Positions 22,254 through 53,470 of a DNA stretch of 64,000 nucleotides are shown piece by piece. Every line of letters begins with the position of its first letter. Positions within the stretch are counted from its first letter, which is position 1. Origin of the DNA: Anastatus disparis (taxonomy: Eukaryota; Arthropoda; Insecta; Hymenoptera; Eupelmidae); assembly GCA_017163975.1 (NCBI GenBank), contig JAFFSR010000264.1, positions 5,552,501 through 5,616,500 on the forward strand. Reading direction: 5' to 3'. Made by a program: the position numbers and the translations under genes. A model generated the notes under the pieces. It saw nothing but the letters and a program-made list of their open reading frames with translations, was not told the origin of the DNA and searched no databases.

Positions 22254-22299
<46 letters not shown>

Positions 22300-23597: not shown

Positions 23598-23598
23598 A

Positions 23599-26779: not shown

Positions 26780-26789
26780 ATTCTTCTCT

Positions 26790-34309: not shown

Positions 34310-34417
34310 TAGTTATTGGGGCACCATGGACCGTCACAACAAACCCCCACTCCACCACCCCAAAGGTTATTGACCACTAGGTCAATGACCTCTGAGAAGG
34401 CGAAGTAGGGGTTTGTT
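34308..34417 (+). repeat. Polinton left terminal inverted repeat
   Basis: About 110 bp matching 53471-53579 in reverse with a few mismatches. Includes internal TTGACC/GGTCAA palindromic motifs (GGTTATTGACC, AGGTCAATGACC). Confidence 0.95.
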
Positions 34418-34801
34418 AGGCATGGTACCCAAACAACTGGAGGGTCACTCACCCCCTCCTAGAAATTTAGAGTGGGGATGAACTGGAGGGTCACTTACCC
34501 CCTCCCACAAAATTTAGAGTGGGGATAAAAATATTTTAATCGATATTTCAAAATTATTAATTTAAAATTTTGTAATATAATCCTTTTTAATTATCGAAAT
34601 AATAAAAACTTGAATTATAAAATATGAATTTAAAAGATTTTTAATTTCCAATTATTATAAATTTTTATATTGAATCAGAAAATACAAAATTTACATATAA
34701 ATTATTGTGTGTATGAAGGATGAGGAGTTGGTAACAGACAAGGTGATTGAAATACTCATGTTTTAAAGTTTAACAACACATTTATTATTAATAATAAAAC
34801 A
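34418..34801. repeat. Subterminal region with a ~47-bp tandem duplication
   Basis: AACTGGAGGGTCACTCACCC to GGGGATG (34435-34481) is repeated nearly exactly at 34482-34528, then AT-rich non-coding sequence leads to the first gene. The subterminal repeats could be protein-binding or replication-origin sites, by analogy only. Confidence 0.7.
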
Positions 34802-35620
34802 TTACAACGTAGCATTCATACAATTAACTAGTGTGTACATATGATAAATAATAAATTCGTGTATGATTATAAACACATCTTCTTTTCCTAAAACTAGATT
34901 ATTCTTTTTTAATAATTCGATGAGATCATTTACAAAATTATCATTAAAACTAGACATTGTGCTTTTTATATCGCTAGAAGTATAGTATACATATTGAGAT
35001 TCCTGACTATTTTCTAATACATTTTTCATATTTATAACCATTTCTCGTAATATATAATCAACAGATTTTACAACAGTATTTAAATATCTAATTCTATAAT
35101 CTATACATTTTGATAAATCTTTTAAACGTTCAAACGTGACACGTTTAAATACTAGTGACCGATTAAATCGACCATATTTTTTCGGCGGTCCACCACACTC
35201 CTCTCCTTCTGGTTGTGCGTCATTGGGTACCAATTCAAAAGCTCTCTCGTGAAAACTAATCATAAAACGGATAGTGTATCCAGGAATAGATAGCCGCTGA
35301 TCCAGCATAGATTCCTCGTTATAGCAAGTGAAAAAATCTTCAATTTTATCAAATTCCTGCTTCAACGCCTCCCAACAGTCCAGTGACAGAGGTAAACCTT
35401 GAAAATTGGCTCCACAGAAGCGTACTACGGGTGCAAACTCCTTTTTGCCTTCACCGCCTATATTCTCCAGGCCTACCTGGATAATTTTTCCAAAAGAGCT
35501 GTTCAGCCCGTAGACCATTGGCAGAACCTGCTGCCAATAATTTTTCTTGCTGTTTTGTTTTATTAAATATGCCAAGTCATTACCAAATGTCTGCTCCAGG
35601 CTTCTCTTTTGACCAACCAT
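34802..35620 (-). CDS. Polinton protein of unknown function, 272 aa
   Basis: Complete frame starting MVGQKRSLEQTF. No motif of known function is seen. It has a central conserved-looking stretch (IRFMISFHERAFELVP) and a helical C-terminal half, with no signal peptide or membrane segment. It is the last gene of the leftward block, next to the left terminus, with its own TATA-like box at 35694-35700. Late structural or accessory roles are possible, but nothing in the sequence decides. Confidence 0.75.
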   Translation of the reverse strand: MVGQKRSLEQTFGNDLAYLIKQNSKKNYWQQVLPMVYGLNSSFGKIIQVGLENIGGEGKKEFAPVVRFCGANFQGLPLSLDCWEALKQEFDKIEDFFTCYNEESMLDQRLSIPGYTIRFMISFHERAFELVPNDAQPEGEECGGPPKKYGRFNRSLVFKRVTFERLKDLSKCIDYRIRYLNTVVKSVDYILREMVINMKNVLENSQESQYVYYTSSDIKSTMSSFNDNFVNDLIELLKKNNLVLGKEDVFIIIHEFIIYHMYTLVNCMNATL

Positions 35621-35673
35621 CTTGCTTGAGCTTTGTTGTTACTGCTGCTATCACTGTCGTCAAACTGTGGCTA

Positions 35674-35700
35674 GACTGAGTGGGTGCCGCTTCTTTTATA
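35674..35700 (-). promoter_or_regulatory. Candidate promoter of the 272-aa gene
   Basis: TATAAAA on the minus strand (35694-35700) with TCAGTC (35674-35679), the arthropod initiator type, just downstream and about 55 bp before the start codon. TATA-to-initiator spacing is slightly short (about 23 nt). Confidence 0.5.
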
Positions 35701-35769
35701 CTGTAAAAAATTGGTGGGGGCGCCGCAAAAAGTTGTTGTGCGACCAATCAGAGACAACCAAATATCATA

Positions 35770-36213
35770 TTACTCGTACGAGATTTTTCCCACAAAATTC
35801 TTGACTATAGTATCATTTTTTTGCAAGTTCTGTGAGAAATTTTCCAAGAATTTCTTGAAACCCAATCCGCTAGACATATAATACAGAAACATGATACAAT
35901 AATGACCACAAACGTTAGAATATTCGCTTTGTAAGCGTTTATTATTCCATCTAAATTTTTTACAATTTTGCTGAATACGTCGTAAATGTTGTTGAATTTG
36001 TGGTGGTTTACCAAGACTATCAAAGTACACACCTGTGCCATACTTATCAACGTATATGGCAACCCAGTGCGCACCACGCTGGTTATAATTTTGCGTATTA
36101 AGTACAAACGCACAAGGTTTCACCCACATCAGAGGAATCCGATCCGCTGGATAAACGCCTACTGCGTGAAACTTGATCCTCATCAGATATCGAACAATCT
36201 CTTTTGAATTCAT
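35770..36213 (-). CDS. Adenain-like cysteine protease
   Basis: 147 residues, intact. Catalytic positions are visible in the right order: His49 in GAHWVAIY, Asp65 in VYFDS, Gln95 in RLQSEYSN and Cys102 in VCGHYC. This is the adenovirus/Ulp1-type (C5/C48) fold used by Polintons and adenoviruses to mature virion proteins. The start overlaps the end of the next upstream gene by 116 bp in another frame, unusually long for this compact genome, and may mean that gene has a shifted C-terminus. The length is typical of the family core. Confidence 0.9.
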   Translation of the reverse strand: MNSKEIVRYLMRIKFHAVGVYPADRIPLMWVKPCAFVLNTQNYNQRGAHWVAIYVDKYGTGVYFDSLGKPPQIQQHLRRIQQNCKKFRWNNKRLQSEYSNVCGHYCIMFLYYMSSGLGFKKFLENFSQNLQKNDTIVKNFVGKISYE

Positions 36214-36745
36214 TGCGGAGAATTTCTAAAAATTCTTCCGAAATCAGCGATTTTACGCTGGGGTTAAGTTTCAGTAGCCAATGTTTCAGATTAGCAACGT
36301 TATTTAGTGCACACACGTAATTTGAATAAGGTGATTTTAAGTAATGATGCACGCACTGTACACTGCTGAAATTTAAATTTCTAAAAGCTGGACAATCTTG
36401 TTCTTTTTCTAAATTTTCAATCTTACAGGTGGTGAGCTTGGAAAGTAGTTCAAGCTTTTCTTGACCTCGCACGAAAATTGTACGACAATTCATGCAAATA
36501 TCTTCCAAATTTTTGTATAATCTTTTTATCGATATATCACCTTCGTACCACTCCAGACCATGATGATTCAGCGTCACCCAATTGTTCTGTCTCAAAGCAT
36601 TTTTAGGTAAGCGTCTTAAATTACAAGGAGGCGCCACAATCCAATGAGCGATAAAGTTTTTATGAATACCGAGTACAGCCACCTCCTTTGGAATCAAACG
36701 ATTTTTGTTGTCCTTTAAAAACTGCACATCAATTACCACGTCCAT
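36098..36745 (-). CDS. Conserved Polinton protein, nuclease-like N-terminus
   Basis: 215 residues starting MDVVIDVQFLKD. The opening (VVIDVQF, then PKEVAVLGI) resembles the first strand and acidic residue of DEDD exonuclease/RNase H-like folds, and the following AHWIVAPPCN, NHHGLEWYEGDI and VRGQEKLELL match a protein seen repeatedly in insect Polinton-related loci. The DEDD assignment is tentative. The last ~38 residues overlap the protease gene in another frame and are Ser-rich, so the natural C-terminus may differ. Preceded by a TATA/initiator pair (36772-36809). Confidence 0.75.
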   Translation of the reverse strand: MDVVIDVQFLKDNKNRLIPKEVAVLGIHKNFIAHWIVAPPCNLRRLPKNALRQNNWVTLNHHGLEWYEGDISIKRLYKNLEDICMNCRTIFVRGQEKLELLSKLTTCKIENLEKEQDCPAFRNLNFSSVQCVHHYLKSPYSNYVCALNNVANLKHWLLKLNPSVKSLISEEFLEILRNEFKRDCSISDEDQVSRSRRLSSGSDSSDVGETLCVCT

Positions 36746-36771
36746 ACTGTTTGCAATGAAAGTTGCTCGCC

Positions 36772-36809
36772 GACTGAGATAATAAAGCTGGCTTTGCTTT
36801 ACTTAAATA
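36772..36809 (-). promoter_or_regulatory. Candidate promoter (TATTTAAG + TCAGTC)
   Basis: Minus-strand TATTTAAG at 36802-36809 and TCAGTC at 36772-36777, with the initiator A about 34 nt from the TATA start. Normal spacing for insect core promoters, 27 bp before the ATG at 36745. Confidence 0.6.
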
Positions 36810-36834
36810 GTGAGAAATATATCCCCACCACTAC

Positions 36835-38135
36835 TTAACCGCTATAATCCACGACAACCTGTCTCGACGAGTCAATTTCGAGCAAATTGTCGTATTCAGC
36901 ATAAATTATACAATTTACAGCGCCCTCTAGTGGGTCGTCGAATCTAACATCAATTCGTACATTACCATTTTTTATCAAATTCCAATGACTACCATCACTC
37001 GCCGATAAATCAGGTGTCAAATCAAAAGCGAATAGGCAGTAACCGTTTGGATAGTCTTCACGGCTAATCGAGTTGCCTGAATTCATAAAGTGAATACCTG
37101 TGCCGGAAAAAGTGTATGATAAGCATCAACGTACATTTTGCTTTTTTTGAAATCTGGCTGTAAGGGCTTCGATGGCACTTGCATTCCATCAACGTACAGA
37201 CACAAAAAATTTATATTAAAATTCTTGAAATTGAATGGGTTAAGACTTTTATCTCCGTTGTAAGCTTTATTTTCAACAAAACCGAGTATAATTCTTTTCG
37301 GCAGTTGACCTAATATGACATTGTCGATTGTTTCCCCATGCACACCATTATGTAACGTAACAGCCTTAACTTCTACACGTGTCAGTGGGTATTTTGCAGT
37401 AGTCTGTGACAATAGTTTTTCGTGTGCTAGCACAAGTGAAGGATTTAATCTTACCCGACGCACAAAAAGCGTAGCCTCGGTAATATTTACCGTGAAAGCA
37501 CCAGCGGGATCCATGAGACAGAATCCATCACGAGAACGCACAAGCCTCACTCTAACTTCAACACCACCCAGTAATAATTTGTCTTGATTAAAAACATCAC
37601 AATGTAAATGGCCGAGTAAATCAATCTTCCTGCCAATCATGAGTGCCTTACGTTTATTGAGACCTACATTACCACCTGTGGTATCGTCCATTTTCCCTGC
37701 TGTATCATCGTACCACAAATCACTCGTTAAATGAGACTTTTTAGCTGTTGGACCATAATTTAGTAATGTTTCAATGTAAGCTCTGTATGCATAAGCATTG
37801 TTTGGCGGTGAAACAGGTTTCTGATTGAATAGCACGTCGACTTGATTAAACAACGAATGCAAAAGATTATTTATTGGTCCAACGCTCGGATCCTTAGGTG
37901 GTTCAGCACTAGTGCATGTTACACTTACACTCACACTTAACATTGTGTGAGCCAAGTCTAGATATTCAGTGTTGCCAGGGATTGTAAATTCAATTGGTGA
38001 TTGGTCGTTGAGTGAAGATATCGGTTTATACTGTACCCAGTAAGAGCCTTCAATTGCAGTCTGTGTCGAGGGTAATTCAAAGAGTGATAATTCCGACTTG
38101 ATTGACTGACAAGATTCTGTATGCAACAACGCCAT
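36835..38135 (-). CDS. Major capsid (hexon-like, F54H12.2-type) protein, frameshifted
   Basis: Frame one (38135-37083, 350 aa) starts MALLHTESCQSIKSELSLF and continues through SYWVQYKPISS, IEFTIPGNTEYLDLAHTMLS and LLNYGPTAKKSHL, the wording of the large jelly-roll capsid family annotated in animals as F54H12.2-like. The conserved C-terminus (GYCLFAFDLTPDLSASDG, then RIDVRFDDPLEG and VIYAEYDNLLEID-type wording) lies in the next frame at 37086-36835. The switch is near 37105, beside a five-base T run (coding strand), and equals one missing base. Total size is normal for the family. The product forms the virion facets. Either an assembly error or a true one-base break. Confidence 0.88.
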
Positions 38136-38144
38136 CTTGAAATT

Positions 38145-38668
38145 TTAATTTTCGAAAATATCTCTAGCTACACGTGCTTTCTTATTCTGCTTCTTCTTCT
38201 TCTTCTTTTTCGCAACTTTACCACTTTTCGAGCGTTTAGCTGCTGAGGTGTTTGTAGTACCAGCTGCACTCGACGACTGAACTGACGATGTCTCGTTCTT
38301 CTTTTTATATTCAGATTCTTCCCCATCTTTTGCACTCGACTCACCCAAGAGCAATTTGTCCAGAACAACGTCAGCTTTTCTTTTGAGATTTTTACCACTC
38401 TCGCGAATGCGCTCTTTGGCCGCCTCTTTGACAGGTCTGCCACCTAGAGTGACATCATCTAAGATATTTTTACCCGCTCGGAGAGCCTCTTTACCGACCA
38501 CTTTTGCACCTTGCTTGATCTTCGGTATAGCTGCTCGGAAGAGACCTTTCAAAAACTACCTACTCCTGCACCCGACTGGTGATAACCAAAACAAGGTTTA
38601 CCAGCTCCAACGCACTTACCCCCACCACCAACCATTTGGTTATTGAAGAAATCTTCAAACTCAGACAT
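38145..38668 (-). CDS. Basic core/pVI-like virion protein, frameshifted
   Basis: A short frame from ATG 38668 (MSEFEDFFNNQ, then a Gly-rich GGGGKC stretch) ends at 38549. Coding continues at once in the next frame from 38552 with KGLFRAAIPKIKQGAKVVGK and EALRAGKNILDDV, then a Lys/Ser-rich tail. The shift is beside a five-base T run. The amphipathic, positively charged N-terminal helix followed by a basic tail resembles adenovirus-type core or membrane-lytic minor proteins, known at this position in related elements. It sits between the minor capsid (2 bp away) and major capsid (9 bp away). The exact role is inferred from context. Confidence 0.7.
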
Positions 38669-38669
38669 T

Positions 38670-39496
38670 TTATCGGATGCGCTTAAAGTGAAGCGTTACA
38701 GTCAACGTACCGTAGTCGAATGGAATGGGAAATCCGTGTTCGTCTCTTATATCTATTTCGATCGACTGAAACGCTGAAGACAGCAGTGGTAGGTACATGG
38801 GTGGTGAAAAGTTTTTAATTTCAACACCTCCGTAAACGTAATCGCGCAAATGAAGCGAGACTATACGTAGTAAGCTCGTGCGCATGTCACCTGTTACGTA
38901 AGGCTGGCAAATGTTGCTGTAAACCATCAGCACGGTTGGCAACCCGTTTACAAGATTTGCTGGACGATTACCGGTAATGTAGTGTTCTTTATTACCTTTG
39001 CAAGAGAAAATTGGTACATTTTCCAGACCTAAAATTCTAAGTAATTTTTCCGATAGTGTAAACGTGTGCTTATAAGTTGTACAATCTTCTCCACATCGAC
39101 ATCTAACCCGTACATAGCCACCAGCTTGGATTTCAAAATATAAATGATTTTTCACATTCTCGAGATTATTTATTTCTTCCAAGAGACTTTCAATATCACG
39201 ATAAACACCAGGTTTGACTCTGGCAAACACCTCGGCCCCCTGTTGAGTCTCTTCTGTTTCTCGCAAAACATTCGCCATTTCACGTTTGGCTGTTTTAACG
39301 GAAATGACTCCTCCCGCTCAACTATTGATATATGCTGAAATGTGAGAGGTATTTGAATTTCCGTGAGTCCTACACACCAGTCGCCATGAAGATAAAAATT
39401 TTGTGATAATTGTGTTGTGAAATGTGTCGCCTCATTGTGTGGAAAGACAAACTTGCTGCTGTTGCTCGGTAAAACCATGTAAAATTCATCGTTCAT
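38670..39496 (-). CDS. Minor capsid (penton-like) protein, frameshifted
   Basis: Frame one from ATG 39496 starts MNDEFYMVLPSNSSKFVFP and reads HFTTQLSQNFYLHGDWCVGL, then TEIQIP, the typical opening of the Polinton single-jelly-roll minor capsid. The remainder is in the next frame from about 39300 (VKPGVYRDIESLLEEIN, then FTLSEKLLRILGL), ending IDIRDEHGFPIPFDYG and TVTLHFKR, the conserved C-terminus. The switch lies near 39310-39300 beside a three-base T run. The ATG overlaps the integrase stop as ATGA. The product is expected at virion vertices. Confidence 0.85.
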
Positions 39497-40613
39497 TGTA
39501 AATTTTTCAAATCTTTAGCCGCTATCCAAGAATTAAATTTTTCTGGATATCCCCTCCAACTGACCAAATATTGTTTTTTCGACCCCCTACCTTTACTCTT
39601 CAAAACCTCGTCAACCTCAAACGCTTCGCTATCTAAATCCTTGCGCACTCTGCTCAACTGTTCTTCGTAAAAATATCCGTCAATTTTCTCCCCACCAAGA
39701 TCTGCCAAAGTATAAACGGGTGGTTGTTGTCTTGTGTCGACTCTTATAATTTTAAACAGCTCCAGAGTCCAGCCACCCTCGTATGCTTTCCTGAAGGCTG
39801 TCTTGGCACGACTGACACGAACCAGATCACCAACGCTGTATTTAGCTACTCTAAACGGCTTTTTTTCGCCGTAACGCAACGTCAAATTTCGACGTACCAC
39901 GTGAGCATTATATAAGTTGACCTTGGAAGGGGGCATTTTTATGGCACTGTGCCACGACTCGTTGTAACACGTCACAATTTTTGGCAAAACATCTATATAA
40001 CGTCTTGTGCGCGAGTGAGTAAAGTATCGCCAGATTCGACCTTTGAGAGTTCGAATAAAGCGTTCGGCAATGGCTGCCTTTATATCAGGGTCTCTGACGA
40101 CTCGGTAGGTAATGTGTTTCTTTTTTAGCACCTCTTGCACCTCTCGACCGATAAACTCCTTACCTTTATCAGTCTGTAGGTAAATAGGATGTCTATCATT
40201 ACATCGTGATAAAATTTTCTCCAATGCTACAGCAACGCTTCGGCTCGTTTTGTCGAGAAGAGGCTCTGCCCAGGCAAACTTTGAAAGTGCATCAATGACA
40301 ATGAGAATATAGCTGTACCCATCATTGTAGGTTTTAAGTGATCTAAAATCTGCCAAGTCAGCTTCCCACACCTCAAAGGGGCTGAAAACGTTGTAATGTC
40401 GACGAGGAAAACGATGTCTCACGAGTTTGTGTAAGGTATGTGCATCCTGACTCTCCAGCCACTTGGCGATGGTATTGTTATCAAATTTTTGGGTTTCGCG
40501 TGTTTCAGTAGATGAGCACCAGCGTACGCTGATGGTGCAGAAAGATTATAGTAATAATGCTCAAGACCGTCCGGCTTTGACGTCTCCTTCTTCCTTTTCT
40601 CCTTCTTTCTCAT
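39493..40613 (-). CDS. Polinton integrase with C-terminal chromodomain, frameshifted near N-terminus
   Basis: The main frame (40422-39493, 309 aa) carries the DDE core: WEADLADF (first Asp), LQTDKGKEF (second Asp) and AERFIRTLKGRIW (Glu), then an SH3-like region and a chromodomain (FEVDEVLK, QYLVSWRGYPEKFNSW). The N-terminal part (YYYNLSAPSAYAGAH) is in another frame up to 40613, with the switch near 40490 beside a five-base A run. Integrase inserts the element with a 6-bp stagger, matching the ATCCAT duplication. The chromodomain could steer insertion to particular chromatin. The 3' end overlaps the minor capsid by 4 nt and the 5' end overlaps the PLA2 gene by 53 nt. Confidence 0.92.
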
Positions 40614-41058
40614 TGCTTCTTTTCCTCTTATAAATTAGCTTTCTCTCTTTCTTTTGCTGTCTTTTAAATGTATTTTTAATGCGTTTCAAAAATTTATCAA
40701 ACGCAATTTTGCTGATCATGCACAAAACAGTAATACCAGCTGCAGTCTTTTCATTACCATCCGCAGTCTCCGAGAGCATGCGTGAAAATGCTCGTTCAGC
40801 CAGCAGTCTGTCGGCTTTTATATGATTCGTTATTTTTTTATTTGAATATGAAATATCGTGCTCTAGACAGGCATTGTCAAGAGGGTTTTTTCCTCTCTGA
40901 CCGCGTCTGAGACGCTCTTCGAGATGTGTGCCAGGGCCAAGAAACTGGTAGCCTGGCAGATGCATTTCAAAGGGTACAACTGAAATCAGATGGTCTATAA
41001 AAGTACCAGTTTTCTCCCCCTCCTCCTCCTCCTCCACCCCTCCATTACTTCCTTCCAT
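40561..41058 (-). CDS. Phospholipase A2-domain virion protein
   Basis: 165 residues, intact. Residues 35-71 contain the parvovirus/secreted-PLA2-type core: PGYQFLGPGTHLEE (calcium loop, Gly-Pro-Gly at 41-43), then DNACLEHDISY with the catalytic His67-Asp68 pair. An acidic N-terminus (EEEEEGEK) precedes it. A helical segment and a very basic tail (KRIKNTFKRQQKKERKL) follow, possibly DNA-binding or a nuclear localisation signal. In parvoviruses this domain breaches endosomal membranes; a similar capsid-entry role is inferred here. It lies between the integrase and the KMILVP-type gene. Confidence 0.85.
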   Translation of the reverse strand: MEGSNGGVEEEEEGEKTGTFIDHLISVVPFEMHLPGYQFLGPGTHLEERLRRGQRGKNPLDNACLEHDISYSNKKITNHIKADRLLAERAFSRMLSETADGNEKTAAGITVLCMISKIAFDKFLKRIKNTFKRQQKKERKLIYKRKRSNEKEGEKEEGDVKAGRS

Positions 41059-41079
41059 GCTTTCACATGCGGTTCCATT

Positions 41080-41892
41080 TTAACTGTTCGAGACGACTCT
41101 TTTTGCAGGGGTTGATGGTGTAGCTGCCAACTCGCTACCAACTTTTTTACGCTTTTTCGCACTCTCAACTTCTTTCTCCTTTACACTCGTCTGACTAGTA
41201 GCTGTTGAAGTATAATAACCTTCGTTTTCTGACGACGATGACGGCGATGAGTCAGCGCTATGAGATGCAATCTTACGCCACAGTTGATCGTTACCAATGA
41301 ATTCTCGAGGTATACTAACTTGTCGCAAGACGCGTGCAAACTGTTTGTATCCGCGCGGTGGTGGTCTTTTTCTACTTCTCATAGCCTCGTTCACCAAATC
41401 GACAATATTAGTACCCTCGACAACAGCGCCATCTAGTTTGATTATACCACGACTGTCCCATTCAATATTACCAGCTTGTCGCAAGTATCTAATGAGATGT
41501 TTAGCATTGCTTCGAAATTTCTGCGGTACCGACTCGACAATCTGTTTGTCGTCGATTTCGTCATTATTGCCTCTATCCATTGTCGTTTCCGTTTCTAATA
41601 ATGCTGTCTCGTGTGGACGTATTATGCCCCCACTCTCATCCTTCTCCTCCTCTCTTAGATGCAAGTAACGCTGCAAGATTTGCTGATATTGCAAAGATTT
41701 TTGACGCTCATCACCCGCAGAATGTAAAATTTTACTCATTTCCTCGTCGAGGCGTGTCGTGGCTGTACCAGGTGTCTGGACACTGGATGCTGGTGTTGCA
41801 TGATTGGTAGTTGCTACGTCATGCTGTTGCTGCTGATGCTGTTGCTCCAAGCACTCTTGCGGTACTAAAATCATTTTTCTTGCGTACTCCAT
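41080..41892 (-). CDS. Conserved Polinton protein with KMILVPQE N-terminus
   Basis: 270 residues starting MEYARKMILVPQECLE, followed by Gln/Thr-rich linker, then LDEEMSKILHSAGDERQK and a central region with GTNIVDLVNEAMR and IPREFIGNDQLWRKI. The C-terminus is Ser-rich and basic. The same order is found in uncharacterised proteins adjacent to the small basic protein below in Polinton-type elements. The function is unknown. The start overlaps the end of the upstream gene by 22 bp, indicating compact or polycistronic expression. Confidence 0.75.
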   Translation of the reverse strand: MEYARKMILVPQECLEQQHQQQQHDVATTNHATPASSVQTPGTATTRLDEEMSKILHSAGDERQKSLQYQQILQRYLHLREEEKDESGGIIRPHETALLETETTMDRGNNDEIDDKQIVESVPQKFRSNAKHLIRYLRQAGNIEWDSRGIIKLDGAVVEGTNIVDLVNEAMRSRKRPPPRGYKQFARVLRQVSIPREFIGNDQLWRKIASHSADSSPSSSSENEGYYTSTATSQTSVKEKEVESAKKRKKVGSELAATPSTPAKRVVSNS

Positions 41893-42218
41893 GCCGATAA
41901 AACAGGTTTCACAATTAGCCGCAGTAAATATGCTGATTTTACCATCAATTTTCTTTTTACCTCCAAACTACCCGGTTTAGCGAGTTTTCGCAACAGAGGT
42001 GCGAATTTTCGCAATTGTCTCTTATAATACTTGCTGAGTGGAATATTTCCACGTAAAATGTTCAAAGCACACTCGCAAATGTACGTTATAAGTTTAGAAT
42101 TTGCTTCGCGTACTATAGCCTTAACTTTATAGAGTTCGCTTTTACACAAGAAATGTAGCTGAGTCCAGTACTTTTCTGGAATTGGTCTGCTGCTACGACT
42201 ACGTCTCACCGGCTCCAT
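41871..42218 (-). CDS. Small basic conserved Polinton protein
   Basis: 115 residues starting MEPVRRSRSSRPIPEKYW. The core ECALNILRGNIPLSKYYKRQ and LRKFAPLLRKLAKPG is a conserved helical basic block met in many Polinton-type elements upstream of the KMILVP gene. The function is unknown; nucleic acid binding is plausible from the charge. Its ATG shares one base with the ATPase stop (TAATG), an arrangement that permits termination-reinitiation. Confidence 0.75.
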   Translation of the reverse strand: MEPVRRSRSSRPIPEKYWTQLHFLCKSELYKVKAIVREANSKLITYICECALNILRGNIPLSKYYKRQLRKFAPLLRKLAKPGSLEVKRKLMVKSAYLLRLIVKPVLSAWSTQEK

Positions 42219-42895
42219 TACAATCGCACGACTGGTACATTATTCGAGCGAGCACCAGCTTTTATGGGTGTGCAACGAGCCACATAAACGTACTGATGTT
42301 TGTCAAACGGAAATATACAAGTACGAAATCTGACATTTTCAGGCGTACCCTGCTTCAGGTCTATGAACAAATAGCCGTGTGGTTGTGCTGTGGCATCGAG
42401 ATATGCCTCTTGCAAAAAACGAGGCTCCTCGGGGCAGACTTGGCGCGCCAGATGATTTATTTGCGCTCGATCGCGCGGATTTTTAAATACCACGATGTAA
42501 TTAGAGTTTAGAGAAATTTCTCGCTGTCCTTGATGAAAGAGATTTTGCGAGATAAAGATGACGCTCAAGTTATTGTGATGACTGCCTTTGGTAAAGAGAT
42601 TGACTACAGCTCTGCTGGACGATTCTCTCATCAGATCGTCGAGAATCAAGAGTTTTGCTCGTGGATCATTGGCATAGTCTTCGCTCTTTGGTAAACCCTC
42701 GTGAAATTCGATTCCCTCACCCAACTCCTTGTAAATTGCCTGCCACTCGGTATAATACAAGAGTATACGCTCGAATTTCGTATCACTCATGCGATCAATG
42801 TGATGCAAAAAATTCTTCACGAATACTGTTTTACCACACGAGCTGGGTCCACAAATCATCAAAGTCCACGGATGCACCCACCTGCAAACGTCCAT
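42218..42895 (-). CDS. FtsK/HerA-type genome-packaging ATPase
   Basis: 225 residues, intact. Walker A GPSSCGKT at 16-23; Walker B LLILDD at 82-87; FISQN at about 136-140 as a sensor-like motif. Such A32-like ATPases pump viral DNA into capsids and are a Polinton hallmark. The start is ATG 42895. Upstream (42896-43100) is non-coding with a GGC repeat. It is the first gene of the left-hand structural block. Confidence 0.93.
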   Translation of the reverse strand: MDVCRWVHPWTLMICGPSSCGKTVFVKNFLHHIDRMSDTKFERILLYYTEWQAIYKELGEGIEFHEGLPKSEDYANDPRAKLLILDDLMRESSSRAVVNLFTKGSHHNNLSVIFISQNLFHQGQREISLNSNYIVVFKNPRDRAQINHLARQVCPEEPRFLQEAYLDATAQPHGYLFIDLKQGTPENVRFRTCIFPFDKHQYVYVARCTPIKAGARSNNVPVVRL

Positions 42896-43204
42896 GTTAC
42901 CGCCGCTGCTAAACTTCTACTACTAACCTCATCACATCCTCGAACCACTCTACATATACGATCAGCAAGAGTGGGGGGCGGCGGCGGCGGCGGCGGCGGC
43001 GGCGCGCGCGTGTGCGAGCAGTATCGTGCTGGCGCTAGCCAATCGTTTAGCTGATTAGCCATATAGCTGGGTGACGCCAGCATTATTCCGCTCTTTAGCT
43101 ATATGGCTGGAAAAGCTTAACAAGTATTAACCTGTTATTTACTCAAAAGCGCTCGTCACCATCACTACTTGTACCTGCCACCACCACCACCACCACATTT
43201 CCAG
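42896..43204. other. Divergent intergenic region with (GGC)n tract
   Basis: Contains a GGC/GCC tract at about 42975-43003, the only strongly GC-rich patch in the element, and ACC repeats near 43180-43200. It lies between the leftward ATPase and the rightward PPP1R15-like gene, so it probably holds both promoters. The inverted TAGCCATATAGCTGG and TAGCTATATGGCTGG motifs (about 43057-43110) are near-palindromic. Confidence 0.6.
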
Positions 43205-43239
43205 TATAAAAGTAAAAGCAGCAGCATTTATAGGTTAGT
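43205..43239 (+). promoter_or_regulatory. Candidate promoter of the PPP1R15-like gene
   Basis: TATAAAA at 43205-43211 and a TTAGTG initiator-like site at 43235-43240, with the A 32 nt from the TATA start. A possible 65-bp intron (AAG|GTAATC at 43300 to TTATAG at 43364) follows in the leader. Confidence 0.55.
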
Positions 43240-43424
43240 GCTGTACAAGTTTTCGTATCGTGAAAATAAATAAGTTATAGTCAACAAATTTGAGCAAAGG
43301 TAATCAAATTTTAACGAAAATTCATTAAAGACTCAAATTTTTAAATTTTGATAAAATTTTATAGAGACTTGTCGTGAGGAAGTGTGGTGATTATCCGTAT
43401 CTTGAAGAAAAAATAATAATAATA

Positions 43425-43625
43425 ATGAATCAAACAAAAAAGGTGCATTTCAAGGAAGGTAAACCGGATATTCACGTGATACGCGTGTGGGATTACGCGA
43501 GCCGTGCAGCACGACGTGGAGAGTGGGAGCAAGCGGCTCGTGACAGAGAGAGATTTAAAATGAGAGTGGAAAGAATGAAGATTATTTTGGAACCTATAAT
43601 TATGAAAAAATTGACGACCACTTAA
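43425..43625 (+). CDS. PPP1R15/GADD34-like PP1 regulatory protein
   Basis: 66 residues from ATG 43425; a longer frame to 43374 has no ATG. Residues 6-9 are KVHF, an RVxF-type docking site for protein phosphatase 1. Next come a Trp at 22 (VIRVWDYAS) and the dense block ARRGEWEQAARDRERF at 29-44, then RVERMKIILEP. That spacing and wording are those of the conserved C-terminal core of PPP1R15 proteins (GADD34/CReP, insect PPP1R15) and their analogues in large DNA viruses, which bring PP1 to phosphorylated eIF2-alpha and restore translation. Here the core stands alone. It is one of only two rightward genes and has its own TATA box. The family call rests on motif reading by eye; function in this element is inferred. 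Confidence 0.75.
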   Translation: MNQTKKVHFKEGKPDIHVIRVWDYASRAARRGEWEQAARDRERFKMRVERMKIILEPIIMKKLTTT

Positions 43626-43720
43626 TAAACAGAAAATAAATTTATTATTCTGTTATATTAATTTTAATTTCAATAAATTATGAAATTTATTACAAAATTG
43701 TTTTTGTCTTAATTCTATAA

Positions 43721-43756
<36 letters not shown>

Positions 43757-43823
43757 TATATATATATATATATGTACATAATATTTTTACTTCGGTAATA
43801 ATATATCAACATTTATTTATTAT
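43626..43823. other. Convergent gene end with TA tract
   Basis: AATAAA-type signals serve the PPP1R15-like gene (43649 onward), followed by a TA microsatellite (43725-43775) before the polymerase stop on the other strand. Confidence 0.5.
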
Positions 43824-46800
43824 TTAATTAGATTTATAGCCGTATGGATAGCTAATCTCGTTATTTACAAATCGTCTCTTTGAGTACACGGGCTCGCATA
43901 TTTTACATTCAGGTCGTGTTATAACATCGTGAAACCGTGTGCGTCTAATAGCGTCATAGTTTGCAAAAAGTGGCGGTATTTCACCAGTAATAAGATTTCG
44001 TATGGAATCAAAGTTTATTTTCTGACTCACCGACGAATTAAGTCTTATACCCTTGATTTTGCAAACACATCCTTCAACGCCATCTGGTGTCAAATATTTA
44101 TATCCGTAAAATTTGGGTCCACCAGAGACGAATGATGTGATGCTTGTGCCAAGACCATAACAGGCCAATTCGTCGGTCAAGTCACCCAAGAACGGCCCTG
44201 TTTTCGCATCGTACTCACCCACGCGACTTACATACACAATAGAGTCAGTATCGTAATACAATACACGTTTACCCAACGGTTGCAATTCTTCGTAGAGTTT
44301 TAAACGCGCCAAGGCTGTGGTATAAGCGGCTACGACAACGTTACATAATGCCGATGGCTCGACAGCCGCTTCTGTGTTGTGCCAGCATACGTAAATTGTC
44401 GTATCGTCGATCGGTAAAATTGAGTCAACCTCGCTCTCAGCACTACAGAGTAATTCAAACAACCTCTGTGGATCATCCACCACTTCGGTCTTTGGCATAT
44501 TTTCTCGTTGACCAAATTTACCCCACAATGAGTTTAAACAGAGTTTTGCTACAGATCTCAGACCAGCGTTATATTTTATTCGATTTCTGTCTAATTTTAT
44601 GCCCTCTTGTTGCACAAATTCCTCAATATATCGAGCAATCGCGTTTTCGTCACCGACAGCACATTCCGAAGGGTAACCCGACGCGTACGTTTTCTCAGCG
44701 AAAAATTTATCGATATAAGTTGGAAATAGACCACCCTGACCCGTGGCTTTGTTGTACTGAGTAATTTTATAAGACCATATTTCAAATATTTTTCGGATGA
44801 TATAGCCCATCTGAACAGCTTTTCTCAACTCGTCAGCAACCCACGTACCGATAAAAACACGATCATCAGGATTTTCATGGTCACAATCTGCGGTATACAT
44901 TAATTCAGCACATGTTCGACACAGTGGAAACAAAAGCTTATTATGCATTTTAACGGGGAGTACAGCATGATATAAATTTCGCGGCGGCAATACTTCACAT
45001 TTAATAAGACCTTCAACGTGACTTATGTCATTCGTTTGACCCACCAGAGAGCGACACTCATCCTCGTCCACGTAGAGAGTTGGGTGACCAATGGGATATC
45101 GACCGTATTTACAGATATATGGATATAATGAACACACGTCCACGTATTTTATTTTCTCACCCTCTTTTGCATCGTAAATTTTGACTGTATTGCCCGTTCG
45201 CCCGCCAAAAAATGCTTCTCGAGGATTTAACGGCGCGTGCCATTTTCGTGTCTTATCTTCAATGTACGACCGCATATTCTCGTTTTCCGAGTACTCTCGA
45301 TCGAAATCACACTCCCACTTTTCGATAAGTTCATAACCATGGGCTCGTATTTTTCCGATATCCGCGCGGTTCTCTCGAAACGTTCGTCCATATTTTCACC
45401 GTTTACGAGCCTAGAGTCTCGGTTTATTGTGTAACACCAGACACAACCATGCCAATAACACCCGTGAAATTGTAAAACGATTTTCTTTCCATTTTCAAGT
45501 ACGCAATATCCGTCCACTAGAGGGCCTTCGGGAAGCCTCTTTTCTCTTGCACGAACGGTATACTGAATTTGTCGATTCAGCACATTTTCCATCCAGCACA
45601 ACCATCGCATCGCCTTCATAGACTGTTTATTTGCTTGTCTATAACCACCTTGAGGTATAATACCTATTGTATCTTTTTGTAAAAATTTTTTTCTATACAC
45701 ACGCATGCAAGAAGATGCGATGGTGGCGCACTCTACAAATGGATCTGTATTACCACATTCGATGAAGGTATTGCGAAAAGCCAGACATGCTAAACGTAAA
45801 ATTTTTACATCTTGCTTACAGTATTTTATAATTTCATTTCTAAAATTAAATATATAATTTTCAGCTTTTTTTTCGTTATACCACTGCATAAATTCGCGTC
45901 GCTCTTCGATCTTCATCGAATCTGGCGAAAAAGTGCATATCGGTGGCATTTCTCCCACGTAATTCTGATTTCCGGTGTATTAAAAAGATGAGGGAACGTA
46001 CCTTTCTCGATATTAACAAGACCGTAAGCTTTTGGTAGTGCAGCTAAACCCATATGTAGATAATTCAAACTATCTATGAATTTAACCGATAAAATTTCCA
46101 TTATGATTATTTTTGACCCGTTTAAAATTACATTTGGCTTATTTCTGAGATCTTTACGTTCTGTTAAATGTTTAAGAATAAATTGTGCATCAAAACCCTG
46201 CGCATTGTGTGCTATACAAACGATTTGTTTGAAATTTTTTCTTGGTGCCAAGGCCAAATCGACTAGCTGTTTCACGGGGTCAATTTCAAACACATACTCG
46301 CGCATCCCACATACTTCGCAAGAATTTGATACATTTTCATCGTTCAAACAGTAACTACACACTTGCTGAACAACACATAAATTTGGTACATGCAGCCTTA
46401 CTTTTTCAGCCTCACAGCCTAAAATGCTCTCTGATTGCTGAGTCTCAAAATCATAAAATAAATAAAGAATTGTTTTTTTATTCATCATGAATCCTTTTTT
46501 ATCGACAATAGGTTGCATGTAACAAAGATGTTCTATTGGTCTTTTACCATTACATATTTTACAAAATATCGTATTACAATCATGTGGTTCTTTATCGTTG
46601 ATGCGCACTGTTTTGCTACATACACGACAAATTTTTATACTCTCGCATACCGACCGAGAACTATCGAAAGATTTTGAATTTTTATGATTTTCAAAACAAA
46701 CGGTGCCGTAAAAATCTCTGCTACATTGAAAGCATTTTATTTTTTCCTGATTTATATCACAAGGAGGCTTCTGTAAACATTTATAGCATTTTTGTTCACA

Positions 46801-49427
46801 TTTATGATTTTTCGTATGACTAAATTTTTTATTGCAAGGTATACAGTAGCCTCGACTCCCAGCCGCTGCGAGTAAATTTAAAATTGGCTGGTAATGTCTG
46901 GAATTTTCATAATACATGATATTTAGAGTATATCTAACGACATTACCAACGTCGTGTACGAAACGTGTGCCATCGAAAAGCGGTCTATATCCACGAACAA
47001 AATTTTGAAATGAATAAACAACGATTGCGACTCCAAAGAGTGCATAATATTCTTGAAATAATTTAATCTCCTCTATACCACAGCCCGTCTCGGGTATCGT
47101 AACTCTCGCAGCTCTTACAAGTTTCAATGCTTGCACTTTCTGATATTGTGCTGTATGATGTCTTATTTTATTCCATCTGTCATGGAAAATTCCACTACGC
47201 GTTTGACCACGTATGGCGTATACGTGAGCAGCGACTAGCGAGCGTGGAAGACAAAGACTGTCGCTATTTTCAATATTTAGAATGGATTTCTTAAAAACTG
47301 ATTCGCTAGTGAGAGACACATGACCCCGGCCCTCTGGTTTAGTCACAGTACTGACTTCAACATTCAAAACATCGTCAATTTCGAAACCATCATTACTCTG
47401 CGCTATACTAGCTATCAGTTCTAGTAAATCTACCGGTGAAAAATCACGAAGCAGTCTAAAAGAAATCCATAGTGACCCGTGCACAAAACGTTCAGAGCTT
47501 ATAGTCATGCCAATATAATCTGATGGTTGTGCATATTCACACACGTGACGATATAAATCGTTTATAGCAGCCTCCAACCAGCCATATACATTTGCATTAG
47601 CTGGTGGGGGTAATATCGACACTCTTAATTGTCGCCCTTGAAGCTTAAACTGTTTGTAATATCGTGAAGTTTCTTCATGAATGGTAATGTGTTCCTGAGC
47701 AGAAGTACCATCTCCCTGTTGAAGACATTCGTCTACAATACCGAGCAGTAATATATAAAAATTAATACAATTATAAAATTACATACATCTCAATAGTCGA
47801 GATCTTCTGTACCTGGTGTCGATATTGCAGATAATGTAGTTTCAGGTGAAACTATTTTATTCGACGTTTGTGCATCCTGGTCATTCCAGTGAGAACAACC
47901 AGGCAACGGTTCATTAGGTCGTGGTGGCGCTGTAGTATCAGCAATTACCCCTCCAACATCGTGTTTGGAGTACTATGATCATAAATCACGTGATCATCTA
48001 ACGAATTTATAACTTCTCGTACTTCTTCGGTGGGCGGCAGTAGTGCAGGATCTCTCGAACTAAGCAGCTGTTCTTCTGCTGACAGAAGATTCATCAGTAA
48101 TTCATCCCCACCACTGTCCTCCATCATGTTTTGCAGGTCTGAAAATTTTTTAATATCATATCTATCAAAGTTACACTATTTTAAACAAAAAGTCTTATCC
48201 CGCGAAATTCTTCGACCATAAATAAAAAATCTATAGATTATTGATCCGATATTGGAAATCGATATTTTTTTGTAAAACATATTTTTGGATTTATCATTGT
48301 ATTTACAACATAAAAGTATTAGCTTGCAAAATTTTTTGACCGTAAATAAGTAAGTTATCGAGTATTGGTCCGATATTGGGAATCAATATTTTTTTGTAAA
48401 ATATATTTTTGGATTTATTATTTTATTTACAACAAAAAAGTCTTATCCCGCGAAATTCTCCGACCATAAATAAAAAATCTATAGATTATTGATCCGATAT
48501 TGGAAATCGGTATTTTTTTGTGAAACATATTTTTGGGTTTATGATTGTATTTACAACATAAAAGTATTAGCTTGCAAAAATTTTTTTGACCGTAAATAAG
48601 TAAGTTATCGAGTATTGGCCCGATATTGGAAATCAATTTTTTGTAAAACATATTTTTGGATTTATTATTTTATTTTCAACAAAAAAGTCTTATCCCGCGA
48701 AATTCTCCGACCATAAATAAAAAATCTATAGATTATTGATCCGATATTGGAAATCGATATTTTTTGTAAAATATATTTTTGGATTTATCATTGTATTTAC
48801 AACATAAAAGTATTAGCTTGCAAAATTTTTTGACCGCAAATAAGTAAGTTATCGAGTATTGGTTCGATATTGGCAATCAATATTTTTTAGTAAAACATAT
48901 TTTTGGATATATTGTTTTATTTACAACATAAAAGTCTTATGCCGCGAAATTCTCCGGTGGTAAATAAAAAGATATAGATTATTGAACGATTATTGGCTAC
49001 GATTTCGTGATTTAAAAATACATTTCTAGATTAGTTATTCGATTCATGATAGAAAATATGCATAACTTACCTGTAGTGACACGATGATGTAACATGAGAT
49101 GTCTAACTTGAGGTGCATCTTGCATTCCTCTGCTCTTAATACAACGACCAACTATATCAAGTATCTGATTATCAATAAAAATATTTCGCTTAAACATATA
49201 GGCTAAAGTACGTAGCCCGCAAAGTCCTATGATGAATTTAATCTTTTTAACAGCTCATTTATAGAGCAAGTTTTCAAATTTTTGCGCCATGCATAATTAC
49301 AAAATAGTTTTATTTGTGGTTCACGAAGGAGAGCCACATTTAAAATAGTTATTAAGATATTATATAAGTCTTTTTTATTCATTCTCTTTTTTGTTATTCT
49401 TGTTCCAATGTTTAAACTCAGACTCAT
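43824..49427 (-). CDS. Protein-primed family B DNA polymerase, probably three exons, frameshifted
   Basis: The main exon (47732-43824) lies in three frames. 47622-45913 has cysteine-pair zinc-like motifs (CIPCNKKF, CKICNGKRPIEHLC) then Exo I FYDFETQ and Exo II AHNAQGFDAQF. 45958-45227 has Exo III KYCKQDVKIL. 45275-43824 has motif A DVCSLYPY, motif B KLCLNSLWGKFG and motif C YYDTDSIVYV. Frame switches near 45970 and 45355 lie in A runs. The frame stays open upstream of 47622 without an ATG back to an AG acceptor at 47733. Exons at 48138-47813 and 49427-49071, with donors CAG|GTACAG and CAG|GTAAGT, join in matching phase apart from two further homopolymer breaks (about 49245, 47955). The likely start is ATG 49427 or 49382. 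This replicase copies the element from a protein primer. The N-terminal extension is unrecognised. An alternative is that the upstream exons are a separate gene ending near 47790. Confidence 0.85.
47733..47812 (-). other. Polymerase intron 2 (80 bp)
   Basis: Donor ACACCAG|GTACAG and acceptor TATTGTAG|AC. Splicing keeps the phase from the acidic exon into the polymerase exon. Read through, the upstream exon ends at a stop near 47790, so retention would give a short separate protein. Confidence 0.55.
48139..49070 (-). repeat. Polymerase intron 1, filled by a ~234-bp tandem repeat
   Basis: Bounded by CAG|GTAAGT (49071/49070) and TTTTCAG|A (48139/48138). Most of it is a repeat of about 234 bp, itself two related halves marked by TCTATAGATTATTGATCCGA and AAGTTATCGAGTATTGG, present about 3.5 times between 48180 and 49000. 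Both halves contain CGATATTGG-like motifs that might bind protein. Confidence 0.75.
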
Positions 49428-49449
49428 ATCAGAACCATAAATCGTTGTC

Positions 49450-49457
49450 TATTTATA
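49450..49457 (-). promoter_or_regulatory. TATA box of the polymerase gene
   Basis: TATAAATA on the minus strand, about 23-30 bp before the first ATG (49427). With this spacing transcription would start near that ATG, so translation may begin at the next in-frame ATG at 49382. Confidence 0.5.
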
Positions 49458-50804
49458 CCGAAAATAAATCATAAATTTTAGGGTGAGCATGCGCGTAAAA
49501 ATATAATATTTAACTTGTCGAGACCTGTAAAAATAATTTGATATTTAAACCTCCAACGTAGCAAGAAATACATCAGTTTTGTGGGAACCACTGAGTTGTG
49601 AGTACGAAATTCAATATTCTTAATAATCTTTAATAATTATTAACAATTTATTAAAAATCTCATATAAGATATTTAGTTAGCATGTACATAATTAAAACTC
49701 GGGTTGCCATTATTTCGCTTATAAGAAGGTGGGACTTTTTTCTTTAAGGCGTGCGTTATGCAATTTCATTCGTCTCTCGTGTCGCGTTATCAAACTTGGG
49801 CTGATCCTGTTACAACGAATGACTTGAGTGCATCTCTTAAGAACACCCATTCTACATCGGCCTAGTAATGGCTATTATACTTCTTAAATCTTTGTACTTT
49901 ACATACTTTATACATACACTAAATTTGCATATGCACCTAATTTGCATACGTACTTAAACTATTAATAAATATCGATATTAGGTAATATCCTTAATATATA
50001 AATTGTGAATTCTTTTATTACATACACATCTACTGTCAAAATAACGGATGGTATACCTCTTTCTTTTTTATAATAGCCTGATACTTTTTATTATTTTTAT
50101 CATAAATTATCGATATTCATTGCGCAATGATTGATAATTTATGAATAATAATTTATAAATAATAAATATCTTTCAATATAAAATATTCAATTTTGATAAA
50201 AATATATTTACATATCATCTGCATATGTATATATGTACAGTAATTATATACGCAACTTGGGCGTATTCACAATGAATGACAAAATTGTAAAATAACGGAT
50301 TGTATACCTCTTTCTTTTTTATAATAGCCTGATACTTTTTCTTATTTTTTTATCATAAATTATCGATATTCATTGCGTAATGATTGATAATTTATGAATA
50401 ATAATTTTTAAATAATAAATATCTTTCAATATAATATATTCAATTTTAATAAATATATATTTACATGTCATTTGCATATGTATATATACACCAGTTATAT
50501 ACGCAACTTGGGCGTATTAACGGTGAATGTCAAAACACCTGATCGCAAGAGGTAGAATAGTTATACTTGCTTTTATATTTTGGACTCCTGATTCTCTTTA
50601 TCGTTTTTGTATCACTAATTCTCTATATTTATTGAATCGATATCTTGGTAATAAATATACATTATATTTAAAATATAATAACCAATTCTAATGCATAGTT
50701 TATTTGTCCATTTTTTGCATATTATTTACATATGATTTGTATATATATTTTATACAAATTTTTGCGTACACGAGTGTGTCTTATGTATGTATAGACATAC
50801 GCAT

Positions 50805-50856
<52 letters not shown>

Positions 50857-51644
50857 CTTATATATATATATATACACATATATTTTTATTTCATAATAAT
50901 AAAATAGGGAAAAGAGAGAAAGAAAAAAAGAGAGAGAGAGACAATGAGAGACGTTTCTCACGCTAAAATTTTAAGTTTTACAAAATCAGTACCCTATACA
51001 CTTCTTGTGAATATAAAATAAATTTTTCCAGACGGTGTTAAGTTTTTAAATTTCTTTAAAATTCATCTTTTCTTGCGAAAAAGGAATCAAGTTGACACGC
51101 GTAGCGTGAGAGTGGTATGTGACTTTTTTAAATTTTTGATATAAGATGCACCCTTAACATTCGTGTTATCTGTTAAATACAATTTTCCCAGACGATTTAG
51201 AATTATTTATACAAAATCAGCACTGTGTCCACTAGTTCGCAGTGAAATAAGAATATCTTTACCACCGACGTGAGCATTATTCGGATTTCATTCCTTCTGA
51301 AATTTGAAATAATAAACCTATTTTAAAATTATTTCTCGCAAAAAGTATCTTAATATCAGCTTCAGCGTGAGAATTGAAAAAAAATATGCAGTTTTTGGGG
51401 TGGGAATTATACTTTTTATGATCGTGGAGTTGTGGCTGTGATCAGTCCTCGTCGACAACCAGCAACGACTCTTGCACCTCTTACGACACCGAATTCAAAA
51501 AGTTTATATTAATATTATTATTAAGTATTAATTATAGTATATATTAATAAGTTCATTATATTTAAAAATTAAATCGGCAATCAGCCTCTTACAAGACCGA
51601 ATTTTAGTAACATTTTAAGTTAAATTTATAAATTAAATTTTAAA
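49458..51644. other. Non-coding Polinton region with a 252-bp tandem repeat and GA tract
   Basis: AAAATAACGGATGGTATACC starts a unit at 50038 that is repeated at 50290 with about 95 percent identity by eye; a third, weaker copy follows to about 50700. A pure GA tract (50805-50854) lies next to TA and GA-rich sequence. TCAGTC at 51442-51447, with TA-rich sequence about 30-36 bp before it, may be the start site for the gene at 51645. No other coding is supported. Confidence 0.6.
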
Positions 51645-52634
51645 ATGTTCGCGAATTTAAACGTAGAGTCACCGATTACTATCAGTGATGACGATAGTGT
51701 GATTGTTATTGAGGAGGTCAACCCAGTGGTGAATATTGCGCCATTAATTAACTTTATTAATCATGGTGTACCATTCCTATTATCCTTAAACCAATACATG
51801 GTCATCCACCAGGAGCCAGTGATCGCTGGTGATGGGGTAATAGGTAATATAAATGTGAATCAGGAGTTGACCGACAATGGTGCGCCGGATCAAGCCGGCA
51901 TTCAACAAGAATTGGTCCTCGATGAGGGGGATAATTTTAATAATCAAGAAATCGTTCTTGAAGAGGCGATTGAGCATGATGTCAATGATGATGCTGTACC
52001 GGATCAAGCCGGTTTTCAACAAGAATTTGTCCTCGAGGAGGAAAATAATTTTAATAATCAAGAAATCGCTCTTGAAGAGGCGATTGAGCATGACATTAAT
52101 AATGAAAATATCATCGCCGAAGAGCCGATGATAGTCGATAATGAAAATGAAAATGAAGCAGAAGATTCAGGCTATGGATCGGAGAACGAGGGTAGTGACA
52201 GCGATCCTGATTACCTGCCCGATGCGGACGAGGAAGAAGAAGAAGAAGAAGTAGACATCATGCGGCAGTATTACTACGAGAGAAAACAAGAATCTCGCCA
52301 GCGTCACGTGCTAGGTGTTATGAAAAAGTACTGGCGCACCAGGGTACGCAAGCTTCGATTGGAGCGCGATAATTTCATTCGCCGGGCTGAACGGCGATTA
52401 CGTCGGTTGAAAAATAGGCGACAACAAACAGAAAGAATCATACCGCGGAGGCAACGAGGCCCTGATCCTACAGTAGAAAAACCAAAGAGAAATTGGGATG
52501 TCTGTTGGGGATGTGCGAAGTCATTTTACAAACAAGGAATTCGTCTGTGGTCCCGATGCGACGATTGTGGACTTTGGTTGTGCCCGGACTGTGGCGAAGA
52601 ACCAGTGCACTGCCAAAATTATAATATCTTGTGA
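51645..52634 (+). CDS. Acidic repeat protein with C-terminal zinc finger, 329 aa
   Basis: Starts MFANLNVESPITISDDDSVI. Residues about 68-145 contain two copies of an acidic unit (NNQEIVLEEAIEHDVN and NNQEIALEEAIEHDIN, each preceded by DQAG.QQE.VL), then a run of Glu and Asp. Residues about 205-285 are a basic coiled coil (YYYERKQESRQRH, RAERRLRRLKNRRQQ). The end has CWGC, RCDDC, LCPDC and HC pairs (about 287-325), a treble-clef/RING- or PHD-like zinc site. The frame is intact. It runs opposite to the main block next to the right terminus. The family is not recognised; an acidic activation domain plus zinc finger suggests transcriptional regulation or ubiquitin-related function, without proof. 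Confidence 0.75.
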   Translation: MFANLNVESPITISDDDSVIVIEEVNPVVNIAPLINFINHGVPFLLSLNQYMVIHQEPVIAGDGVIGNINVNQELTDNGAPDQAGIQQELVLDEGDNFNNQEIVLEEAIEHDVNDDAVPDQAGFQQEFVLEEENNFNNQEIALEEAIEHDINNENIIAEEPMIVDNENENEAEDSGYGSENEGSDSDPDYLPDADEEEEEEEVDIMRQYYYERKQESRQRHVLGVMKKYWRTRVRKLRLERDNFIRRAERRLRRLKNRRQQTERIIPRRQRGPDPTVEKPKRNWDVCWGCAKSFYKQGIRLWSRCDDCGLWLCPDCGEEPVHCQNYNIL

Positions 52635-53359
52635 GTGTGTACGTGAATATAGTTAAGAGAACGTGTATTATTTAATGTTTAAAATTTAAATTTTTAAAAA
52701 TGCGCGTAAATATAATTTTTTATTTAAGGTATTTAATTTTGAAACATTTTAATTATTTTTTGTGTTTCTTAAAAATATAGAATGTCACATGGTGAAATTT
52801 TTAAAGTGTGTAAGGATAAAATTTTTTATTTTAAGTATTTTATGTTTTTAAAAATATATATTGTCAACGTGCGTGGTGTGTGCGTGAGAAGTTTATTATA
52901 ATATACATTGTATGCGTGCATATATATATAAAATTTTTTAATTTTTAATATTGTGTATTTTTGTGTTTGTGGCAAAGAACTAGTGCACTGCCAAAATTAT
53001 AATATCTTGTGTGTACGTGAATATAGTTAAGAGAACGTGTATGTATTTATGTTTAAAATTTAAATTTTTAAAAATGCATGTGAATAAAATTTTTTATTTA
53101 AGGTATTTAATTTTTGAAACATTTGTAATTATTTTCATTTAAAGTGTGTCAGAATAAAATTTTGTATTTTAAGTATTTTATGTTTTTAAAAATATATATT
53201 GTCAACATATGTGGTGTGCGTGAGAAGTTTATTATAATATACATTGTATGCGTGCATATATATATAAAATTTTGTGTTTAATAAAATTTTGTGTTTAATA
53301 AAATTTTGTGTTTAATAAAATTTTGTGTTTAATAAAATTTTTATTTTTTAATATTGTGT

Positions 53360-53402
<43 letters not shown>

Positions 53403-53470
53403 GTGCGTGTGTGTGCGTGTGTACGTGTGTAAGCGTGCATTTATTTCTTGGGGCACCAATGTTCCGTCTC
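52635..53470. repeat. Right subterminal repeats: ~340-bp duplication, 18-bp repeats, (GT)n
   Basis: A segment beginning in the 3' end of the zinc-finger gene (CAGTGCACTGCC-like, TATAATATCTTGTG) is repeated at about 52980-53270. An 18-bp unit TTTGTGTTTAATAAAATT follows four times (53270-53345), then GT-rich microsatellite (53361-53436) up to the terminal repeat. Duplication of the gene tail shows local unequal exchange. Confidence 0.75.

Follow-up and report, generated by a model that had tools for sequence, protein, structure and literature searches.

A stand-alone PPP1R15/GADD34-like core gene carried by an insect Polinton, with a candidate role in eIF2-alpha dephosphorylation

Analysis of a stretch of 64,000 nucleotides (the window) revealed a short rightward gene of 66 residues that lies inside a Polinton/Maverick element and whose product is almost certainly a homologue of the conserved core of PPP1R15. 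The homology suggests that this small protein probably serves as a PP1-targeting eIF2-alpha phosphatase subunit, which would blunt the translational arrest of the host. In the mammalian proteins PPP1R15A/GADD34 and PPP1R15B/CReP the core forms the C-terminus of a protein of more than 600 residues, whereas here it stands alone; Drosophila PPP1R15 is reported to be about half the mammalian length (PMC4394351). The features of the gene, of the Polinton and of the element that the Polinton interrupts are collected in Table 1.

Table 1. Positions of the Polinton, its genes and its surroundings within the window
Feature	Position	Strand	Basis or remark
5' LTR of Ty3/gypsy-type element interrupted by the Polinton	30254..30964	+	711/711 identical to 3' LTR
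Target-site duplication ATCCAT (6 bp), left copy	34302..34307	.	
Polinton/Maverick element, 19,272 bp, AGTAGT...ACTACT ends	34308..53579	.	inverted repeats and duplication
Left terminal inverted repeat, ~110 nt	34308..34417	.	alignment with right repeat
Adenain-type cysteine protease (Peptidase_C5)	35770..36213	-	Pfam over cut-off
Presumed major capsid protein, 350-aa ORF	37083..38135	-	size and place only
Integrase, rve core and chromodomain	39493..40422	-	Pfam over cut-off
Packaging ATPase, Pox_A32-like	42218..42895	-	Pfam 25.4 bits against cut-off 22.8, whole protein
TATAAA box	43205..43210	+	consensus match only; 32 nt before proposed start site ~43237
Possible 65-nt leader intron (5' UTR), AG/GTAATC ... 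TTTTATAG	43300..43364	+	by eye
PPP1R15/GADD34-like stand-alone core gene, 66 aa	43425..43625	+	KVHF 6-9, R30, W34, F44, V48
AATAAA polyadenylation-type signal 3' of the stop	43635..43640	+	another at 43672
DNA polymerase B (DNA_pol_B_2)	43824..47622	-	three overlapping frames: 43824-45275, 45227-45958, 45913-47622
Right terminal inverted repeat	53471..53579	.	alignment with left repeat
Target-site duplication ATCCAT (6 bp), right copy	53580..53585	.	
3' LTR of the same Ty3/gypsy-type element	57985..58695	+	GTAT on both outer sides of element

The carrier is a genuine Polinton. Polintons are defined by terminal inverted repeats, AG...CT ends and a 6-bp target-site duplication, and in this copy the two repeats are identical in 106 of 113 aligned columns, the first two columns being flanking bases. 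The polymerase, integrase, protease and ATPase all score over their Pfam whole-protein cut-offs, the ATPase narrowly and with no single stretch under an E-value of 0.01. The original prediction had placed the gene within a Polinton, and the presence of both ends together with these four genes bears this out. The double jelly-roll capsid proteins are presumed from size and place: none of the candidate ORFs passed a Pfam cut-off, modelling of the major capsid candidate gave no usable structure (pLDDT 30), and the presumed minor capsid region (38670-39496) is spread over two frames (38670-39278 and 39170-39496). The split polymerase and minor capsid frames suggest either a defective copy or assembly errors. 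Single-sequence scans of IMG/VR, which detect close relatives only, returned none for the presumed capsid, the C-terminal polymerase frame, the ATPase or the integrase. The element also holds an ORF with a phospholipase A2-like domain at 40561-41058 (Pfam PF08398, 39.9 bits against a cut-off of 23.9) and, upstream of the polymerase, tandem repeats of ~124 bp at 48142-48970. A second rightward ORF, at 51645-52634, encodes 329 residues, acidic in the middle and rich in Cys and His towards the C-terminus, which resembles a zinc finger; it matched no Pfam family over cut-off, and part of it (51877-52104) is tandemly duplicated at the DNA level.

The Ty3/gypsy-type element around the Polinton stops in its protease-side frame on the left flank and resumes with the reverse transcriptase on the right. 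As the Polinton entered after this element, whose LTRs are still identical over their full length, the insertion is recent. An intact 66-residue frame in so recent a copy is no proof of selection in the host, although it does mean that the gene was recently present in the element from which this copy came. Other repeats were seen elsewhere in the window. A 731-residue ORF (61036-63231, minus strand) lies between 216-nt inverted repeats that are 95% alike, and the region (60527-63971) looks like a separate DNA transposon. At 8819-13106, several ORFs that run leftward are surrounded by 374-nt inverted repeats (97% alike) and may belong to another DNA transposon; satellite-like repeats of ~164 bp fill 16922-29988 in two mutually inverted blocks, the longest arms of which are 1135 nt at 97%.

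The gene was predicted to lie between the packaging ATPase and the DNA polymerase, and its frame is found there, running from an ATG at 43425 to a stop at 43623-43625 on the plus strand, between the leftward ATPase ORF and the leftward ORF for the C-terminal part of the polymerase. The G+C content within the frame is 0.42; over the preceding 200 nt it is 0.255, and over the following 180 nt 0.117. A TATA box precedes the frame and polyadenylation-type signals follow it. No ATG occurs from the proposed start site to the nucleotide before the gene's own ATG (43237-43424), so a ribosome scanning the leader would reach the gene's ATG before any other. An intron in the untranslated leader is possible.

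Searched as a single sequence against 177,635 distinct PDB sequences using phmmer, the protein matched human PPP1R15A first (7nzm, E 5e-8 over residues 5-59; 4xpn, 7.3e-7), DP71L of African swine fever virus (ASFV; 9nb9) at 5e-5 and PPP1R15B weakly, at 0.05. The top six of the ten matches listed were PPP1R15A/B or DP71L and the other four were unrelated, at E-values of 0.21 to 1.1. A profile of two rows, the protein and its one relative described below, raised PPP1R15A to 5.7e-10 in a series of 5.7e-10, 1.6e-8, 7.9e-7 and 0.0015; among the eight matches listed, the top six belonged to PPP1R15A/B or DP71L and the rest were unrelated (E 0.08-0.66). In the reverse direction, the human core was compared with all 1375 six-frame stretches of at least 25 residues in the window and matched the 66-residue frame alone, at E 5.5e-11, the next stretch standing at 0.98. 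Among 20,000 shuffles of the same composition none scored above 11.3 bits, whereas the real protein scored 39.5. The proposal of a stand-alone PPP1R15-type core is thus backed by the direct and profile searches, by the single matching stretch in the window and by the key residues.

The Pfam profile gave a different result. PF10488 (PP1c_bdg) scored the protein at 14.5 bits (E 0.029), below the gathering cut-off of 26.1, and the relative at 25.4 bits, just under it. A profile search had been expected to recover the PPP1R15 match, and here the outcome was split: the Pfam profile alone gave it only below the cut-off, whereas direct sequence comparison recovered it strongly. Such a cut-off is set for detection and does not define the family, and the low score may be explained by the length of the model, which has 230 positions and of which the core matches only the end. 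A NIPSNAP identity, which Pfam scored at 15 bits (cut-off 22.3) and thus level with PP1c_bdg, found no support in the PDB match lists and was rejected. The same Pfam-profile approach was uninformative for the host: in the source genome (939,413,245 bases, 399 contigs) it gave no PPP1R15 match, but it gave none in any of 14 control genomes either.

A single relative was found among 5.8 billion sequences. This 70-residue protein, P0001, aligns with 92% of the query at 56% identity (E 5.8e-14), shares 19 consecutive identical residues with it in the core, and used alone as a query leads to the same family in the PDB, including DP71L. It begins MKKVTF and has the same single-core layout. P0001 comes, however, from one contig of 2,545 bases and may be either a Polinton gene or a host exon. 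Several further candidates were rejected. One IMG/VR locus, found with the two-sequence alignment as query (43% over residues 19-58), shares RDRERFKM but has no docking site; it carries Phe at the W34 position, scores 12.4 bits in the profile and has neighbours that read as bacteriophage-like. Nine IMG/VR contigs retrieved with a degenerate W34-to-F44 core pattern scored 14.0 bits at best, and all nine lack an RVxF-like motif in the same frame within the 35 residues before the match. A locus from bacterial and archaeal genome contigs reached 19.2 bits with Tyr at the W34 position; the match overlaps, in a different frame, a longer ORF that reads as a UDP-glucose dehydrogenase.

It is conceivable, but unlikely, that the core exon of a host PPP1R15 gene was taken up by one Polinton copy as passive cargo, with no role for the element. 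The mammalian core is reported to be encoded by a separate exon (PMC4394352), and capture of a single exon would give just the core stretch; P0001 could itself be such a host exon, and the intact frame of a young insertion says little for selection. Against this, the frame comes with an ATG, a stop and a polyadenylation signal of its own, no other ATG lies between it and the TATA box's proposed start site, and its G+C content is far above that of its flanks. The residues shared with P0001, moreover, cluster in the functional core, as would be the case under selection.

The protein and the human PPP1R15A core are colinear over residues 5-59, with 24 of 54 aligned residues identical. The KVHF motif (K6-V7-H8-F9) aligns with human K555-V-R-F558, an RVxF-type docking site for PP1, and W22, R30, W34 and F44 correspond to human W570, R578, W582 and F592, with V48 at the position of human I596 (the human numbers for R578, W582, F592 and I596 are our own conversion, mouse number +7). 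The KVxF motif, the arginine of the Arg site and the W, F and I/V positions are thus features that the protein shares with the PPP1R15A and PPP1R15B core. The original prediction had placed KVHF, W22 and the block ARRGEWEQAARDRERF (residues 29-44) in both the order and the spacing of the PPP1R15 core. The order holds, and the spacing differs in one detail: relative to human PPP1R15A, one extra residue, G12, separates the docking site from W22. Chen et al. 2015 (PMC4394352) report that replacement of mouse R571, which occupies the Arg pocket of PP1, or of W575 weakens activity both in vitro and in cells, whereas replacements of F585 and I589 weakened activation by actin in vitro but were indistinguishable from the wild-type protein in cells.

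The C-terminal end differs from that of PPP1R15A. In ungapped numbering the protein ends at the position of human residue 614, about two residues short of the actin-contact segment at 616-620, the deletion of which in mouse (W609-R613) is reported to abolish actin-mediated acceleration in vitro (PMC4394352). Its last residues are PIIMKKLTTT, and a shifted, shorter helix (IIMKKL) could replace the C-terminal amphipathic actin-contact segment. A structure model of the protein, of low confidence (mean pLDDT 56.7), places a helix at 34-64, which agrees with the family, but it also draws one at 16-30, a stretch that should be extended when bound to PP1.

ASFV DP71L offers a comparison for this short end. 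It is virus-encoded and, at 71 residues, nearly equal in length, and it aligned at residues 18-62 of the Polinton protein. It belongs to another virus lineage, and the HMMER alignment begins past the docking-site region, so the comparison concerns the later part of the two proteins. Only seven DP71L residues follow the point matching Polinton residue 62, and DP71L is therefore short as well.

With its actin-contact end seemingly missing, the protein may bind PP1 without directing it to eIF2-alpha. It would then be a decoy or an inhibitor of PP1, or would target it to some other substrate, a reading to which we give only a small chance. The stop about two residues before the actin segment defined in mouse (PMC4394352) would fit such a role, as would the want of an N-terminal region for recruiting substrate. 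However, the W34...F44...V48 block is the best conserved part of the protein and is common to DP71L, which is itself short, and the function of this block goes beyond PP1 docking to the actin-dependent work on eIF2-alpha. The short length and weak Pfam score might suggest an open frame that arose by chance or through base composition, but this is refuted for practical purposes by the stretch and shuffle controls, and the matches to the PDB sequences and to P0001 stand against it as well.

Returning to an eIF2-alpha phosphatase subunit as the preferred reading, we propose that one small gene of this virus-like Polinton is dedicated to a regulatory subunit of the PPP1R15/GADD34 type, cut down to its conserved core. 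The extended N-terminus would dock host PP1 through KVHF, the hydrophobic stretch that follows and R30. The helix from W34 to about residue 64 would then, together with G-actin, cradle the N-terminal domain of phosphorylated eIF2-alpha, as in the 7nzm complex. PP1 would strip the stress phosphate, and translation could continue when the eIF2-alpha kinases of the host react to replication of the element. Taken by homology, this scheme would imply that the gene is expressed, that its product binds PP1, actin and eIF2-alpha, and that the element benefits.

Whether a core of this size is enough has been a matter of dispute. A conserved C-terminal core of ~70 residues has been reported to be sufficient for attenuation of the integrated stress response (ISR) (PMC4394352, PMC5961032), which makes the stand-alone core a plausible working unit. 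In contrast, Hodgson et al. 2021 (PMC8633803) are reported to hold the 70-residue core alone to be only marginally active and unselective, and in Yan et al. 2024 (PMC10998612) the core holophosphatase is described as acting on the eIF2 trimer about ten times more slowly than one with a longer PPP1R15A. As both papers question the core alone, the dispute bears on the mechanism proposed here. The short C-terminus of the Polinton protein bears in turn on what length of PPP1R15 suffices and which of its contacts with actin is required, and at 66 residues the protein is directly assayable.

Viral PPP1R15 cores are an established kind, known from herpesviruses, granuloviruses, baculoviruses and ASFV (DP71L); for Polintons as a carrier class we found none reported. 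Herpesvirus and granulovirus proteins are described, and the granulovirus member, gp036 of Choristoneura occidentalis granulovirus, stands in the published family alignment (PMC4394352). This gives a precedent among the DNA viruses of insects, as do the baculoviruses: a review considers a lepidopteran origin most likely for the baculovirus homologues of PPP1R15A (PMC5704228). HSV-1 ICP34.5 and the baculovirus homologues resemble the present protein in being virus-encoded PPP1R15 cores, a likeness by description and not letter by letter, but they belong to larger viruses, not to integrating virus-like transposons. Relative to PPP1R15A, the Polinton protein is one residue longer just past the docking site, stops short of the actin-contact segment and is borne by a mobile element. 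Our search of the open-access literature found no description joining Polintons and PPP1R15, and an earlier description is possible; papers joining Polintons and eIF2 concerned, by their titles, only other subjects (giant viruses, an anemone transcriptome). The baculovirus review treats the PPP1R15A genes and a bracovirus Polinton in separate passages that do not join them (PMC5704228), and the main text of Wallace et al. 2021 on Drosophila adintoviruses (PMC8363768) contains no GADD34, phosphatase or eIF2. With the present gene, the range of viral PPP1R15 mimics, described until now for larger DNA viruses, would come to include an integrating element of ~19 kb.

It is an old question whether the Polintons of animals still live as viruses or are no more than transposons that carry capsid genes. 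A gene most plausibly used against an antiviral or stress response of the host is functional evidence for the viral side of this question. We would suggest, tentatively and at somewhat less than even chances, that an insect Polinton lineage keeps a minimal eIF2-alpha phosphatase subunit beside its ATPase, and that this subunit works without the C-terminal actin-contact segment. If this is a trait of the lineage, animal Polintons would meet, and disarm, a translational arrest of the type raised against viruses, and their replication would be infection-like rather than quiet transposition.
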